Part shown: piece by piece, positions 138-14,046 of the stretch
How positions within the stretch are numbered: the stretch's first letter is position 1
How the letters are laid out: each line of letters begins with the position of its first letter
Virus record (IMG/VR): IMGVR_UViG_3300032249_000049
Span: 1-23,169 of that record
Strand: one strand, 5' to 3'
DNA length: 23,169 nt
Source of the DNA: a virus
The notes under the pieces: generated by a model
Database searches by the model: none
Seen by the model: the letters and a program-made list of their open reading frames with translations, nothing else
What the model was told of the DNA's origin: nothing
Made by a program: the position numbers and the translations under genes

Positions 138-187
138 TTTTCACGCCCCGTGTATTTTGCAGAAAGCACAAAAACATGGAATTAAAA

Positions 188-265
188 CTAAATGACAATA
201 TGACCAATAAAATCTAAATGACAATATTGCCAATAAATTCTAAATGACAATATGACCAATAACTG
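188..265 (+). repeat. Three tandem 26-bp repeats (iteron-like)
   Basis: Three units of exactly 26 bp follow each other at 188-213, 214-239 and 240-265. Each begins CTAAATGACAATAT. Units 1 and 3 share their first 23 bases, while unit 2 differs mainly at ATTGCC in place of ATGACC. A 26-bp period is near 2.5 helical turns. Contiguous near-identical direct repeats of about 20 bp in non-coding AT-rich DNA are typical of iterons (replication initiator sites) or of regulator or partition sites. The assignment to one of these is inference. Confidence 0.85.
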
Positions 266-461: not shown

Positions 462-587
462 GGTGACGATGGTGTCAGAAGAAATTTTTTATTTTTAATG
501 AAAATCCGTATATACAATCTATATACAAAAGCAGACTATTTATACATATACACAATGACGTGTATAAATCTAACCAGGAGATACATC

Positions 588-659
588 ATGTGGACAAAAC
601 CAGCAGCAACTGAAATGCGTTTCGGCTTCGAAGTGACAATGTACGTAATGAACAAGTAA
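588..659 (+). CDS. pqqA: Coenzyme PQQ precursor peptide PqqA
   Basis: This 23-residue peptide (MWTKPAATEMRFGFEVTMYV plus MNK) is the ribosomal substrate for pyrroloquinoline quinone synthesis. The family signature is visible: an N-terminal W-x-K-P, then R-x-G-F-E-V-T-M-Y. Glu15 and Tyr19 form the E-x3-Y pair that PqqE (a radical SAM enzyme, with PqqD as peptide chaperone) cross-links and from which PQQ is built in the cytoplasm. The start at 588 is chosen because AGGAG lies at 576-580 with normal spacing; an in-frame ATG at 450 would add 46 residues of unrelated sequence. No pqqB-F genes follow: the next gene is a terminase subunit. A hairpin lies 8 bases after the stop. The gene therefore stands alone as an apparent phage moron that would depend on host PQQ enzymes. 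PQQ serves methanol and other alcohol or sugar dehydrogenases in the periplasm. The alternative is a host pqqA flanking a prophage. Confidence 0.9.
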   Translation: MWTKPAATEMRFGFEVTMYVMNK

Positions 660-666
660 TACTCAC

Positions 667-682
667 GGGGGCGAAAGCCCCC
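667..682 (+). terminator. Terminator-like hairpin after pqqA
   Basis: The perfect stem GGGGGC (667-672) and GCCCCC (677-682) is closed by a GAAA tetraloop 8 bases after the pqqA stop. It lacks a clean U-tract (ACCCCTCTT follows), so it may act as a 3' mRNA-stabilising stem or a weak terminator. It separates pqqA from the terminase genes. Confidence 0.65.
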
Positions 683-689
683 ACCCCTC

Positions 690-718
690 TTGACAATCCG
701 CAAAATTCAAACTACCAT
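690..718 (+). promoter_or_regulatory. Candidate sigma-70 promoter for the late/packaging genes
   Basis: A perfect -35 box TTGACA (690-695) is followed by a 17-bp spacer and TACCAT (713-718, four of six matches to TATAAT). Transcription would start near 724-726, essentially at the ATG (725) of the terminase small subunit. No Shine-Dalgarno sequence precedes that ATG, so a leaderless transcript is possible. TGACAAT within the -35 region also resembles the upstream half-sites. Confidence 0.5.
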
Positions 719-724
719 GCGAGC

Positions 725-1129
725 ATGACATTCCTCTCGATACCTTTTTCGCCACGCGAGTTGAAGGCAACTGAGTCTCGCTTACAGGCTATTTACGATG
801 CAGCAAAGCTTGGGTTGAAGAACGACTCTCTGGCGTTAGCTGCAGGGATGATGCCGTCCGAGTATCGGCAACTCTGCCAGGTAGACCCTGTTGCAGAGAT
901 GGCAGCACAAAAAGGTAAGGCTGATGGCGAGAAAGAGATGGCGCAACATCTAGTGGCGGCAGCCCGTGAAGGCGACGCTAAGTCAGCTCTCGCTGTGCTA
1001 CAGCATGTACACGGCTGGACAGCCAAGACTGAGATCACCGTGGATGTGTACCAGAAAATTAGTATTACTCAAGCTTTGCAAGAAGCTCAATCGCGTGTTA
1101 TTGAAGGCACCGTCGTAGACAACGAATAA
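725..1129 (+). CDS. Terminase small subunit (probable)
   Basis: This 134-residue protein lies directly before the large terminase with a one-base TAATG overlap, the usual place for the DNA-recognition subunit of the packaging motor. Residues about 25-55 contain a helix-turn-helix-like stretch (DSLALAAGMMPSEYRQLCQV). A middle helix rich in Ala, Lys and Glu ends in AVLQHVHGW at about 90-99, a segment typical of phage small terminase proteins of this size. The acidic tail (VIEGTVVDNE) may contact the large subunit. The start at 725 has no visible ribosome binding site; an ATG at 718 is followed at once by a stop. The family call rests on position, length and the helix-turn-helix impression, not on a diagnostic motif. 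Confidence 0.75.
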   Translation: MTFLSIPFSPRELKATESRLQAIYDAAKLGLKNDSLALAAGMMPSEYRQLCQVDPVAEMAAQKGKADGEKEMAQHLVAAAREGDAKSALAVLQHVHGWTAKTEITVDVYQKISITQALQEAQSRVIEGTVVDNE

Positions 1130-2655
1130 TGCAATTACCTATATATAGCTCGGATGAAGAACAGTTATTAATGTCACGTCTGTGGGACCCGCGTGTTGCG
1201 GACGACCCTGAAGCGTTCGTGCTGTTCGCGTTTCCGTGGGGGCAAGCCAACACGCCGTTAGCAAAGTTCAGGGGGCCAAGACAATGGCAACGCGACGTGC
1301 TAAGAACAATCGGCAAGCACATCAAGGATAACCGCGGTCAAGTCGACATGACAACGCTACGTGAGGCAGTCAGCTCAGGGCGGGGGATCGGTAAGTCGGC
1401 GTTAGTCAGTTGGCTAATCTTGTGGATGTTAACGACACGCATTGGTTCTAGTGTAGTGGTGTCGGCTAACAGCGAGTCGCAGTTAAGGTCCGTCACATGG
1501 GGCGAGCTGACTAAGTGGCAGGCCATGATCATCAACGCGCATTGGTGGGAGATCAGCGCAACTAAGCTCGTGCCAGCCAAGTGGGTGTGTGAGCTAGTCG
1601 AGCGCGACCTCAAGAAGGGGACGCGGTACTGGGCGGCTGAAGGTAAGCTGTGGAGTGAAGAGAACCCAGACAGCTACGCGGGTGTGCATAACCACGACGG
1701 CATGATGTTAATATTTGATGAAGCGAGTGGCATACCTGACGGCATTTGGTCCGTGGGGGCAGGCTTCTTTACGGAGAACATATTAGATCGGTACTGGTTC
1801 GCGTTCAGCAACCCGCGCCGTAACCAAGGCTACTTCTTTGAGTGTTTCAACTCTAAGCGTGACTTTTGGCATGGGAGACAAATAGATGCACGACAGGTCG
1901 AGGATACAGATAAAGCGGTTTACGAACAGATTATTGCCGAGTATGGTGAAGAGTCGTCACAGGCGCGGGTCGAGGTTTATGGTGAGTTTCCATCAGCAGG
2001 TGAAGATCAGTTTATCAGCCCGACACTCGTCGAGGACGCATTTAAACGTGAGAGATATAAGGATACGTCTGCACCTATCGTTATCGGCGTTGATCCAGCA
2101 CGCGGGGGCGCGGATAGCACGGTCATCCTTGTGCGTCAAGGGCGTGACATCATTAGCATCAAGCGGTACCAAGGCGAGGACACGATGTCTATCGTAGGGC
2201 GTGTCATCGAGGCAATAGAAGAGTTCAAGCCTGTGATGACAGTCATTGACGAAGGTGGCCTGGGGTATGGCATATTAGATCGGCTAACCGAGCAACGCTA
2301 CAAGGTCAGAGGCGTGAACTTTGGGTCACGCGCTAAGAACAGCATCATGTGGGGCAACAAGCGAGCAGAGATGTGGGGCGCCATGCGCGAGTGGCTCAAG
2401 ACAGCGAGCATACCAGAGGATAGAAAACTAAAGTCAGACCTGACAGGCCCGATGAAGAAGCCAAACAGTAGTGGTACGATCTTCTTAGAAGGTAAGAAAG
2501 AGATGAAGGCAAGAGGCATGGCAAGTCCTGATGCAGCGGATGCGCTATGCGTAACTTTTGCATTTCCCGTAGCGCATCGTGAGTATGTTGACAAAGGCAT
2601 AAAAAAGTCGTATGCTAACGGTGGCGGTATATCTAGTTCATGGATGGGAAGCTAA
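1129..2655 (+). CDS. Terminase large subunit (packaging ATPase-nuclease)
   Basis: This 508-residue protein is the motor that pumps DNA into the prohead through the portal and cuts concatemers. The ATPase half has a Walker A motif SGRGIGKS at residues 83-90 and a Walker B strand with catalytic Glu, LIFDEA, at 194-199. The RNase H-like nuclease half starts near IVIGVDPARGGADST (317-331, with Asp322). A second acidic site, VIDEGG, follows at 372-377, and PDAADAL at 467-473 supplies the final Asp residues. Length is close to P22 gp2 (499 residues). The gene is visibly more GC-rich than the downstream head genes (one 60-base line at 1201 is 62% GC), suggesting a separate origin or different codon pressure for the packaging module. 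The start overlaps the small subunit stop by one base. Confidence 0.95.
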   Translation: MQLPIYSSDEEQLLMSRLWDPRVADDPEAFVLFAFPWGQANTPLAKFRGPRQWQRDVLRTIGKHIKDNRGQVDMTTLREAVSSGRGIGKSALVSWLILWMLTTRIGSSVVVSANSESQLRSVTWGELTKWQAMIINAHWWEISATKLVPAKWVCELVERDLKKGTRYWAAEGKLWSEENPDSYAGVHNHDGMMLIFDEASGIPDGIWSVGAGFFTENILDRYWFAFSNPRRNQGYFFECFNSKRDFWHGRQIDARQVEDTDKAVYEQIIAEYGEESSQARVEVYGEFPSAGEDQFISPTLVEDAFKRERYKDTSAPIVIGVDPARGGADSTVILVRQGRDIISIKRYQGEDTMSIVGRVIEAIEEFKPVMTVIDEGGLGYGILDRLTEQRYKVRGVNFGSRAKNSIMWGNKRAEMWGAMREWLKTASIPEDRKLKSDLTGPMKKPNSSGTIFLEGKKEMKARGMASPDAADALCVTFAFPVAHREYVDKGIKKSYANGGGISSSWMGS

Positions 2656-3105: not shown

Positions 3106-3246
3106 ATGCCGTTAAAAAAATCACCAAGCAAAAGTGCGTTTCGTGAAAACGTCAAAGCAGAAATTAAAGCAGGCAAACCTATTAAGCAAAGCGTTGCTAT
3201 TGCGTACTCAGCAAAAAGAGAAGCTACTAAAAAAGGTAACAAATGA
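3106..3246 (+). CDS. Small lysine-rich phage protein, unknown function
   Basis: This 46-residue protein reads MPLKKSPSKSAFRENVKAEI, then KAGKPIKQSVAIAYSAKREA and a lysine tail. The pattern KSxxAFxxNVKxE...GKPxKQxVAIAYS is common in tiny phage proteins near portal genes. It starts one base after the previous stop; the tail of the upstream gene (AAAGG at 3093-3097) provides a ribosome binding site. It overlaps the co-chaperonin start by four bases (ATGA). No function can be assigned. The predicted pI is very high. Confidence 0.7.
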   Translation: MPLKKSPSKSAFRENVKAEIKAGKPIKQSVAIAYSAKREATKKGNK

Positions 3247-3521
3247 GACTTAAACCATTAAGCGACTGCATCGTAGTAGAGCAAGACGAAGAAGTAGTAA
3301 GCAGTATTATTTTTGTACCAGGTGCTAAGAAGTTGTTTAGCGGATACGTACGCGCAATCGGCCCAGGGAAGAAACTAGAGAATGGAAACTTATCAAATAT
3401 GGATGTTCAAGTTGGGGATCATATTATGTTTGGTGAGTACACAGGTCAAACGACGACTATCGACGGTAAAGATTACCTAATGATGCGTAACACGGAAGTG
3501 ATTGGACTGATAAATGAGTGA
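3243..3521 (+). CDS. GroES-like co-chaperonin (Cpn10)
   Basis: This 92-residue protein matches the single-domain Cpn10 fold. Opening strand MRLKPLSDCIVVEQ is followed by a mobile-loop equivalent with IIFVPG at 22-27 (the GIVLTG position of GroES), the conserved turn GYVRAIGPGKKLENG (34-48), VQVGDHIMFGEYTGQ (56-70) and the closing DYLMMRNTEVIGLI. GroES caps the GroEL folding chamber and releases folded substrate. Phages such as T4 (gp31) and several marine podoviruses carry their own version for coat protein folding. The hydrophobic IIF in the loop suggests it still engages host GroEL. It sits directly before the portal gene (8-base overlap), so it is expressed with the head proteins. Host origin is possible but not shown. 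Confidence 0.9.
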   Translation: MRLKPLSDCIVVEQDEEVVSSIIFVPGAKKLFSGYVRAIGPGKKLENGNLSNMDVQVGDHIMFGEYTGQTTTIDGKDYLMMRNTEVIGLINE

Positions 3522-11193: not shown

Positions 11194-12087
11194 ATGACTT
11201 CAGTAACCATACTACAATTACCTGCAGCTACTTCTGCTACAGGCGCGGATAAAGTGCCTTTTGTGCAAAGTAGCGTAACTAAACAAATTTCCGTTGATGA
11301 CTTATGTAAAAACAGGACTTTTGTTGCTCCCGCATTAGGTACTCCAGCTTCAGGTACTCTAACTAATTGTACAGGGCTACCCGTATCTACTGGCGTTTCA
11401 GGTTTAGGATCGGGTGTTGCAACATTCTTAGCAACGCCATCTAGCACCAATTTAGCCGCCGCTGTGACAGGTGAGACAGGTTCAGGCGCATTAGTGTTTG
11501 CTACTAGCCCTACGTTAGTTACGCCAATATTAGGTACTCCAGCTTCAGGTACGCTAACTAATTGTACGGGATTACCCGTATCTACGGGTGTTAGTGGATT
11601 AGGCACTAACGTTGCAACTTTTTTAGCAACGCCAACTTCAGCTAATTTAATTGCAGTTGTATCAGATGAGACAGGTTCAGGCGCATTAGTATTTGGAACT
11701 GCACCTACTTTAGCTAATCCAGACGTTACTGGTGGGTCTATTAACAACACTCCTATAGGCTCAACTACAGCAAATACAGGTAAATTTACTACGTTATCAA
11801 TTAGCATTGTAACTAACACAGCCGCTACATATTCGGTATTAGCGACTGATCATACGATTATACAAACTACATCCGCATCAACATATACGCTTCCTACGCC
11901 ATCTAGTTTTACAGGTAGACAACTTCATGTTGTCACTCAATTTGCAGGCGCTGTAATTTCAGCATCTTCAAATGTAGTACCTATTGCTGGCGGTTCAGCA
12001 GGTACAGCTATTTTAGCTGCTACAGCAGGTAAATGGGCTACATTAGTAAGTAATGGTACAAACTGGATTATTGTAGCGAGCAACTAA
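11194..12087 (+). CDS. Repetitive tail-fibre-like protein
   Basis: This 297-residue protein starts MTSVTILQLPAATSATGADK, a usual opening of phage fibre proteins. Two 65-residue repeats follow (about 45-109 and 110-174), each with LGTPASGTLTNCTGLPVSTG and ETGSGALVF. A GGSINNTPIGSTTANTGKFT segment (180-199) leads to a C-terminal beta domain ending ATLVSNGTNWIIVASN. Such repeats are typical of shaft regions. AAGGA precedes the start and the stop overlaps the gp10-like gene by one base. A role as a particle-attached fibre is inferred; the receptor is unknown. Confidence 0.75.
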   Translation: MTSVTILQLPAATSATGADKVPFVQSSVTKQISVDDLCKNRTFVAPALGTPASGTLTNCTGLPVSTGVSGLGSGVATFLATPSSTNLAAAVTGETGSGALVFATSPTLVTPILGTPASGTLTNCTGLPVSTGVSGLGTNVATFLATPTSANLIAVVSDETGSGALVFGTAPTLANPDVTGGSINNTPIGSTTANTGKFTTLSISIVTNTAATYSVLATDHTIIQTTSASTYTLPTPSSFTGRQLHVVTQFAGAVISASSNVVPIAGGSAGTAILAATAGKWATLVSNGTNWIIVASN

Positions 12088-13625
12088 TGAAATCACCAAT
12101 CTTAGGTCAGTCTTATGTAGCACGAAGCGTTAATGCTGCGGATAACCGCATGATTAACCTATTCCCTGAAGCTACGCCTGAGAACGGCTTAGAGATAGGC
12201 TATCTTAATCGTGCGCCTGGGCTAACAACATTATGCACCGTAGGTACAGGCCCTATTAGAGGCTTGTGGGCGCATCAATCAAATGGTACAGATGCGTACT
12301 GCGTATCGGGTACAGGATTTTATCGCATTAATACAGACTACACATCACAATATATTGGTGAAGTGTTAGGCTCAGGCCCAGTCACATTTGCTGACAACGG
12401 TACACAGATATTTATTGCCGCTAATCCATTAGGTTACATTTACAACGAAGTAACAGATGTGTTTGCTAAGATTACCGATCCTGACTTCACAGGCGCAGGG
12501 ACAGTATGCTATTTAGATGGTTACTTTGTCTACAACGAGCCTGACAGTCAAAAAATTTGGATTACTCAGCTTCTTGACGGCACGTCAGTAGACCCATTAG
12601 ACTTTGCTAGTGCTGAAGGCTCACCTGACGGTGTAGTAGCCGTTAACACTATCCATCGTGAACTATGGGTGTTTGGTACAGATACAACTGAAGTGTGGTA
12701 CGACTCAGGCGCAACAGACTTTCCGTTAATCCCTATTCAAGGCGCGTTTAACGAGACTGGCTGTATTGCCCCTTATTCTGTAGCCAAACTAGATAACTCT
12801 CTCTTTTGGTTAGGTAACGACCCTCGTGGGTTTGGCGTAGTGTTTAGGTCTAATGGTTACGCAGCGCAACGCGTATCAACACATGCAGTAGAGTATGCAA
12901 TACAGAACTACGGCACTATATCAGACGCTGTAGCATACACATACCAACAAGAAGGGCATGCCTTCTATGTGATTAGTTTTCCTACCGCTAACGCCACATG
13001 GGTGTATGATGTAGCAACAGGATCATGGCATGAACGTGCTAGTTTAGTTAATGGCGAGTTTGCACGTCATCGTTCAAACTGTCAATGTAACTTCCAATCA
13101 ACAACATTAGTTGGTGATTATGTAAATGGTAACATCTATAAATTTGATTTAGATGTGTATGCAGACAATGGCGAACCACAAAAATGGCTACGTTCTTGGA
13201 GAGCGTTACCTAGCGGTCAAAACAATTTAAAACGAACTGCACAACATAGCCTTCAATTAGAAGCTGAAACAGGGGTAGGTCTTAATGGCATAGACCCATT
13301 AGACCCACTAGAAGGATTATTAACTACTGAATCAGGAAGTTTTATTACTACTGAGTCAGGCGAAGATTTACTAGTAACTGTAGCTACAGTAGAAGGTGCA
13401 AACCCTCGCGTAATGTTACGATGGGCTGATGATGGCGGTCATACTTGGTCTAATGAACATTGGACTAGCATGGGGCGTATAGGCCAATATGGATATCGTA
13501 CTATTTGGCGTCGTCTAGGAATGACACAAAAGCTACGTGATCGCGTGTATGAAGTGTCTGGAACTGATCCAGTTAAAATAGCTATTATGGGTGCGGAGTT
13601 AATCCTAAATGGCACAAACGCCTAA
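12087..13625 (+). CDS. Tail accessory / DNA stabilisation protein, P22 gp10-like
   Basis: This 512-residue protein begins MKSPILGQSYVARSVNAADN and RMINLFPEATPENG, the distinctive opening of the P22 gp10 family (P22 gp10 has 472 residues). In P22, gp10 binds gp4 and closes the packaged head before the tail needle and spikes join. The body is beta-rich with repeated blade-like segments (GPVTFADNGTQIFIAA, IHRELWVFGTDTTEVWYDSG). Near the C-terminus DDGGHTWSN resembles an Asp-box. A short acidic insert LLTTESGSFITTESGEDLL lies near 410-430. It overlaps the following gene by 17 bases. Confidence 0.9.
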   Translation: MKSPILGQSYVARSVNAADNRMINLFPEATPENGLEIGYLNRAPGLTTLCTVGTGPIRGLWAHQSNGTDAYCVSGTGFYRINTDYTSQYIGEVLGSGPVTFADNGTQIFIAANPLGYIYNEVTDVFAKITDPDFTGAGTVCYLDGYFVYNEPDSQKIWITQLLDGTSVDPLDFASAEGSPDGVVAVNTIHRELWVFGTDTTEVWYDSGATDFPLIPIQGAFNETGCIAPYSVAKLDNSLFWLGNDPRGFGVVFRSNGYAAQRVSTHAVEYAIQNYGTISDAVAYTYQQEGHAFYVISFPTANATWVYDVATGSWHERASLVNGEFARHRSNCQCNFQSTTLVGDYVNGNIYKFDLDVYADNGEPQKWLRSWRALPSGQNNLKRTAQHSLQLEAETGVGLNGIDPLDPLEGLLTTESGSFITTESGEDLLVTVATVEGANPRVMLRWADDGGHTWSNEHWTSMGRIGQYGYRTIWRRLGMTQKLRDRVYEVSGTDPVKIAIMGAELILNGTNA

Positions 13626-14046
13626 CTACACCCGCATACCTGCGCCTAGAGTTTCGCTTGTAGACCCACAAACAGGTATTGTATCAAACGAATGGTTTAG
13701 ATTTTTTAATAATATTTACGCAATTACGTACTCAGGAGCTAACACAACTACGCCAGGCACGTATGGTTCGGCAACAAATGTAGCACAAGTAACAATAGAT
13801 TCATTTGGCGGTATTACAAGTATAAGTAATGTACCGATAGCCATTAATGCTAGTCAAGTAGTAACAGGTACGCTTAATGGATTAGGTTTTACTAATGGTA
13901 CAATTAGCAGTTCTGCAATTAGCAGTTCTGCAATTAGTAGTTCTGCAATTAACAGTTCTACAATAGGTAGTGTAACACCTTCAACAGGAACGTTCACTAC
14001 AGCTACTGCATCAAATTATGTAGGCATATCAGGGGGAGTGTTTTAA
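13609..14046 (+). CDS. Tail-fibre-like protein with ISSSA repeats
   Basis: This 145-residue protein opens with IPAPRVSLVDPQTGIVSNEW then FRFFNN, a conserved anchor motif of phage fibres. Residues about 99-118 hold ISSSA, ISSSA, ISSSA and INSST in tandem, encoded by four 15-base DNA repeats at 13903-13962. It ends TGTFTTATAS then NYVGISGGVF, the same last seven residues as the protein ending at 6268. The start lies inside the gp10-like gene, and the stop shares one base with the next ATG. It is probably a short fibre or adaptor between the tail hub and the following fibre; this is inference. Confidence 0.7.
   Translation: MAQTPNYTRIPAPRVSLVDPQTGIVSNEWFRFFNNIYAITYSGANTTTPGTYGSATNVAQVTIDSFGGITSISNVPIAINASQVVTGTLNGLGFTNGTISSSAISSSAISSSAINSSTIGSVTPSTGTFTTATASNYVGISGGVF
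13903..13962 (+). repeat. Four 15-bp tandem repeats inside fibre gene
   Basis: ATTAGCAGTTCTGCA occurs exactly at 13903 and 13918, then with one change at 13933 and more changes at 13948. Each encodes one ISSSA-type pentapeptide in frame. Length change in whole units would leave the frame intact. Confidence 0.85.

Follow-up and report, generated by a model that had tools for sequence, protein, structure and literature searches.

The closest described case of a phage carrying pqqA, the gene for the PQQ precursor peptide, is VP_266, a methylotroph phage population of Lake Baikal reported in 2020 to encode both PqqA and a methanol dehydrogenase (MDH), whose authors proposed that the phage PqqA aids methanol oxidation as an auxiliary metabolic gene (PMC7678222). 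pqqA is also among the viral genes listed for reservoir sediments (PMC13188868), and in view of these two reports the idea of a phage pqqA as an auxiliary gene is not new. However, VP_266 is one metagenomic phage with a methanol dehydrogenase, whereas in the loci examined here pqqA is found without MDH, in many phage groups, in all cultured methylophages found, and with a host-type control site.

The chromosomal counterpart is the stand-alone pqqA of the Methylophilaceae (TIGR02107/PF08042), many copies of which lie apart from pqqBCDE, and which shares with the phage gene an identical peptide, the leader, the strong ribosome site and the 3′ hairpin, and has an upstream element of the type often seen, though weak in the window, before phage pqqA. 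The phage copy differs in adjoining the terminase, in the nearer position of the putative operator and in having a degenerate half-site. A further parallel is offered by the psbA and hli auxiliary genes of cyanophages, with which the phage supplies the host component that is used fastest. Here too the part supplied would be the one most quickly consumed, but it is a cofactor precursor peptide, i.e. a substrate, rather than an enzyme or photosystem protein. What appears to be new is the presence of pqqA in all cultured methylophages found, its lone-substrate form and the common upstream element.

We analysed a window of 23,169 bases, a linear IMG/VR phage fragment with a P22-like portal, and propose that its pqqA, a genuine phage gene, is probably a self-contained cassette that feeds the host PqqD/PqqE and so sustains PQQ for the methanol dehydrogenases.

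The pqqA cassette and its surroundings

To the right of pqqA, beyond a 134-residue ORF, the window encodes the large terminase subunit, a portal, a scaffold and the major head protein; all four have matches in PHROGs, which identifies the window as a viral fragment. Its sole PqqA (Table 1) matches the NCBIfam model TIGR02107 (E = 1.8e-10, 40.4 bits, cut-off 20) and the Pfam model PF08042 (E = 6.4e-11, 42.4 bits, cut-off 21.1), in both cases over the full model length, and contains the PQQ-forming pair, E15 and Y19 with three residues between them. Its sequence recurs without a single change in 16 PqqA copies on Methylophilaceae chromosomes, in a host sample made up mostly of Methylophilaceae and Methylophaga, and the closest host pqqA genes differ from that of the window in 4 of 69 bases. 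A chance ORF is ruled out by the scores of the two models and by this identity, and, because the peptide is the same as that of the hosts, its crosslinking by PqqE with PqqD is likely.

Table 1. Features at and around the pqqA gene of the window.
Feature	Position	Strand	Remarks
Repeats of TAAATGACAATATGACCAATAA, 26-base spacing	180–262		Perfect inverted copy at 12–33
Operator-like site TTAATGAAAATCCGTAT, weakly related to the palindrome of host pqqA/pqqB	495–511	−	Host-only matrix score 4.7
Hairpin of TACACAATGACGTGTA type, presumed 5′ untranslated region	547–566	+	7 pairs
Shine-Dalgarno AGGAG	576–580	+	7 nt before ATG
pqqA, 23-residue PQQ precursor peptide MWTKPAATEMRFGFEVTMYVMNK	588–659	+	ATG start; Glu15 and Tyr19 present; TIGR02107 and PF08042
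Downstream hairpin GGGGGC-GAAA-GCCCCC	667–682	+	−14.8 kcal/mol, z = −3.1
Promoter-like TTGACA-17-TACCAT, before the terminase genes	690–718	+	Consensus match only
134-residue ORF at the small-terminase place	725–1129	+	Position only
Terminase large subunit	1129–2655	+	PHROG 2; anchor for the search for relatives

Among the matches listed, AGGAG is present in 77 of 121 phage pqqA upstream regions (0.8 expected), TATAAT was observed upstream of the gene 30 times (11.5 expected), and for 62% of the 3′ regions the folding z is below −1.5. Hairpins like that of the presumed leader lie upstream of many phage pqqA genes, and in the window the 56-nt stretch concerned gives a z of only −1.1. The TATACA...TGTATA palindrome of this hairpin was also considered as an operator; since just 5 of the 133 regions upstream of phage pqqA contain it, this was rejected in favour of a leader hairpin. 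The downstream hairpin, possibly a terminator or a protector of the 3′ end, was missed by a simple terminator scan because it is without a good U-run; the scan of the window called no canonical terminator, nor was a sigma-70-like site called directly 5′ of pqqA, and no Rfam family was found at the locus.

The first-pass annotation, made from the sequence, had described a PqqA signature with the Glu15/Tyr19 pair, a good ribosome binding site and a hairpin after the gene. All three stand: the family scores are far above the curated cut-offs, the AGGAG is well placed, and the hairpin is real, while the comparison with Methylophilaceae PqqA that it had proposed yielded the identical chromosomal copies mentioned above. 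As for its reading of the gene as a moron, pqqA comes with hairpins of its own on the 5′ and 3′ sides, an operator-like site and a ribosome site, and looks like a moron with a putative promoter and terminator.

To the left of the cassette, and outside it, the TAAATGACAATATGACCAATAA repeats are possibly a control or replication-origin region, or repressor sites. Further left, a close relative (L255) encodes a DUF5906 protein and has a leftward gene with a sliding-clamp domain, so that pqqA has genes of replication type on one side and packaging genes on the other and sits at their border. The 134-residue ORF has no match in PHROGs, and the gene at this position in phage DSL-LC05 is annotated as terminase small subunit. 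Further into the window (3243–3521), an ORF recognised by eye resembles a GroES-like co-chaperonin, and in the related phage DSL-LC05 a GroES is annotated just ahead of the portal gene.

In order to follow the gene among relatives, 80 loci were collected by their terminase and PqqA was looked for upstream. It is found in the same place in eight of the nine loci having a terminase identity of at least 94% and enough upstream DNA, at 541–1059 bases from the terminase. In one near relative (L257, 4400–4700) the leader and the ATG are kept and a stop follows at once (ATG TAA), the ORF being cleanly deleted, and pqqA is therefore dispensable at least there. Among the loci of lower similarity (51, with terminase identity up to 84% and more than 1200 bases upstream), not one has pqqA nearby. 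Presence in near and absence from distant relatives would fit a gene that follows its host.

Occurrence among phages and in the Methylophilaceae

A tblastn search with the window peptide against a collection of 50,697 phage records matched 12 of them, of which ten are true phage. Nine of these are Methylophilales/Methylophilaceae isolates (Venkman, MEP301, MEP401, MEP402, P19250A and four Melnitz phages), and the tenth, ctXG6705, is an environmental genome from Manatee Spring with the identical peptide; "all cultured methylophages" thus refers to the records found, with MEP431-434 and Venkman EXVC038S outside the comparison. The other two matches, both named Acinetobacter phage MD-2021a (L009, CAKLQF020000010.1, and CAKLQH020000055.1), were discarded as phage: the one inspected carries ppk and pqqBCDE on a contig of chromosomal type and is evidently wrongly named. 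In none of the ten phage records is pqqA annotated, there being either no feature or a hypothetical protein instead, which in the inspected Melnitz and ctXG6705 records is on the opposite strand. The likely reason is its shortness, as 72 bases are below the usual length limits of gene finders. A phage pqq gene is likewise unmentioned in the published descriptions that we found for these OM43 phages.

The presence of pqqA in complete genomes of phage isolates indicates a genuine phage gene and not host contamination. Host DNA beside a prophage is excluded by these gene-bearing isolates, by the same arrangement in the relatives and by the phage replication genes on the left-hand side. Both the phage-borne nature of the gene, as claimed in the first-pass annotation, and the suggested search for it at the same locus of related phages are thereby settled by the shared position in eight of nine near relatives and the phage-type replication genes of L255. 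The gene is also a lone one, as had been noted: no pqqB-F ORF was recognised by eye in the ORF list of the window, the pqqA-phage loci examined (mostly fragments of up to 15 kb) revealed neither pqqBCDE nor a methanol dehydrogenase, no pqqB-E was found near pqqA in any of the viral contigs examined, and no close PqqE relative was found in IMG/VR.

IMG/VR was searched with degenerate DNA patterns for pqqA. The pattern for GFEVTMY retrieved at least 120 loci, with PqqA in all of the 120 listed, and a second pattern, with GTC/GTG for valine, at least 110 new ones, with a full-length PqqA and start codon in 109 of the 110 listed (in the remaining one the start codon was not found). Full-length PqqA is therefore encoded in 229 of 230 distinct loci among the matches listed. 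The GTC/GTG codons make up about 7.5% of the first set (among the matches listed), and an extrapolation by simple proportion gives well over a thousand pqqA copies in IMG/VR.

Grouping by shared proteins of 120 IMG/VR contigs among the matches listed, the window and six named phages gave 17 components that do not have two proteins in common, some of this splitting being due to fragmentation. In community detection distinct groups were formed by Venkman with MEP301, by each of ctXG6705, P19250A, MEP401 and Melnitz, and by the window's own group. The placement of the cultured phages in different gene-sharing groups points to repeated gain or to a mobile cassette. A PqqA of another type (IRLGFEVTMYFKN-, LRLGFEVTMYFKQV) is present in five viral contigs (L012, L021, L026, L032 and L036), which suggests phages of other PQQ-making bacteria. 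Another pqqA-bearing contig (L109, 1997–2400) has a betaproteobacterial tmRNA (RF01850, 134.9 bits), which is either phage-borne or a sign that the contig is host DNA.

On the host side, pqqA was found in all 80 family genomes examined, in 1 to 12 copies (median 4; at least two copies in 78 genomes), and PqqE over the cut-off is present as a single copy in each of six host genomes. Multiple pqqA copies had been noted earlier in cultured Methylophilaceae strains (PMC4109929), and in Methylosinus the RNA of pqqA reaches about 12,000–14,000 units against about 160 for pqqE, i.e. about 70–85 times as much (PMC3615186). With many pqqA copies, a single pqqE and high pqqA RNA, the hosts already invest in precursor dosage, and the phage copy is an extension of this logic. 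A methylotroph host had been predicted for the window, and the true phage records with pqqA all come from Methylophilales/Methylophilaceae isolates, bar the one environmental genome; a Methylophilaceae host is strongly indicated for the window phage.

Proposed role of the phage gene

The Methylophilaceae (OM43, LD28/Methylopumilus) are important methanol consumers of coastal seas and lakes. In an infected cell, PqqA would be made from the phage cassette, with its host-type operator, short hairpin leader, strong ribosome site, 23-codon ORF and downstream hairpin; host PqqD/PqqE would crosslink the peptide at Glu15-Tyr19 and the remaining host enzymes would convert it to PQQ, keeping the XoxF/MxaF methanol dehydrogenases charged while host gene expression declines, and the working dehydrogenases would provide energy and C1 units for phage production. 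Since one PqqA is spent per PQQ and the enzymes are reused, the precursor would be the one component worth carrying, and it may matter when host transcription fails or when demand from methanol dehydrogenase rises. Expression during infection, processing by the host enzymes and benefit to the phage are putative steps. Counting against this reading, PQQ binds MDH tightly, and a limitation by new PQQ within a single infection is hypothetical. In one study PQQ was added to the OM43 culture medium (PMC9004378), which by itself is no argument for a shortage of PQQ.

Among the matches listed, the phage pqqA copies have a mean pS of 0.57, a pN of 0.10 and a pN/pS of 0.17, a ratio biased downward because the search pattern fixed residues 13–19, and 55 of 125 phage peptides are identical to a sampled host peptide. 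As a test free of this bias, IMG/VR was searched for MRFGF-x-VTMY in which the Glu codon was exchanged for one beginning with a letter other than G, and for MRFGFEVTM-x in which the Tyr codon was exchanged for one beginning with a letter other than T. For these codons, which cover most replacements, and in the MRFGF context only, there was no match, against 229 intact copies among the matches listed, and so degenerate decoy peptides seem to be absent or rare.

These results bear on two other readings of the gene. Being multi-copy, short and self-contained, the host cassettes are easily acquired, and pqqA could be a passenger, often taken up from the many scattered host copies and kept without benefit, as the clean loss in L257 might also suggest. 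We consider this improbable, since the copies listed have been retained with low pN/pS despite wide synonymous divergence, phages of one host family but of unrelated groups have the gene, with leader and ribosome site intact, and a neutral gene of 72 bases would decay. The first-pass annotation had raised competition for PqqD/PqqE, and more generally the phage could apply a brake, flooding these partners with PqqA or titrating the pqq regulator with operator copies, and thereby lower host PQQ and methanol oxidation. Surplus substrate or operator copies could in principle have this effect, and an operator-like element is often present, but every copy among the matches listed retains both residues of the crosslink, with no decoy variant, many of these peptides are those of the hosts, and the hosts themselves have up to 12 copies, which leaves such a role slightly less probable again than that of a passenger. 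Taken together, the intact residues, the host identity and the evidence for retention make both readings less likely than PQQ supply.

The lowest probability is assigned to an end other than MDH for the PQQ or the peptide, for instance control of a PqqU-type PQQ importer (a possible phage receptor) or redox protection. An operator match upstream of a TonB-dependent receptor gene in one host genome would agree with it, the importer and phage-receptor role being putative, but the occurrence of the gene tracks methylotrophy, and we regard this end as very unlikely.

Should the phages of the Methylophilaceae supply PQQ precursor as a matter of routine, infected cells would differ metabolically from other methanol oxidisers, and one of the commonest host-derived genes of methylophages would be one of 72 bases that standard annotation skips. 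Whether a consumed precursor peptide, rather than an enzyme, limits cofactor supply in infection then becomes a testable question.

An upstream palindrome of the hosts and its relative in phages

Over-represented words are strong upstream of pqqA in both the host and the phage sets. The hosts have a palindrome, e.g. CTCATGAAAATCATGAG, mostly 120–140 nt before the ATG of pqqA, and the phages a relative of it (TTAATGATTTTACTGAT, TCATGGTTTTCTGTAT etc.), mostly 70–120 nt before the ATG. In five host genomes there are 16 distinct perfect matches to TMATGRWWWTMMTKAG, 11 of them directly upstream of pqqA or pqqB, and sites with one mismatch are found close to other pqqA copies as well as between the gene of a solute-binding protein and an MDH-type ORF; the match ahead of the TonB-dependent receptor is a perfect one. 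Judging from these positions, the host sites are candidates for a PQQ/methanol regulon. In a limited literature search, no published description of the palindrome was found.

With an operator matrix built from host sequences only, the phage upstream regions among the matches listed have a median score of 7.5, against −4.2 for windows taken at random from the same contigs, and 34 of 122 exceed the 99th percentile of the random windows. For 85 new phage regions among the matches listed, which had no role in motif discovery or matrix building, the median is 5.1 against −3.8 (p = 2e-16, a value that takes related phages as independent, with random windows that include coding DNA and are a weaker control than matched intergenic DNA), and the sites above the 95th percentile cluster at −80 to −100. 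The site of the window itself is weak, its score lying between the 75th and 95th percentiles of random 300-nt windows (median −4.2, 95th percentile 5.7), and at the corresponding position the score is 10.8 in two close relatives, L047 and L253. Phage pqqA thus often has upstream a relative of the host pqqA/pqqB palindrome, a putative operator, and the common palindrome is a candidate operator for the Methylophilaceae pqq genes. It is an even call whether precursor supply is a general bottleneck for methylophages, such that unrelated phages captured the whole host pqqA unit with its operator, which would answer to the host regulator and be nearly universal in the phages of one family. Examples of the host palindrome at the various sites, which also include one ahead of a pentapeptide-repeat gene, are L345:1488, L348:1242 and L342:1503 in the host genomes G001-G006.
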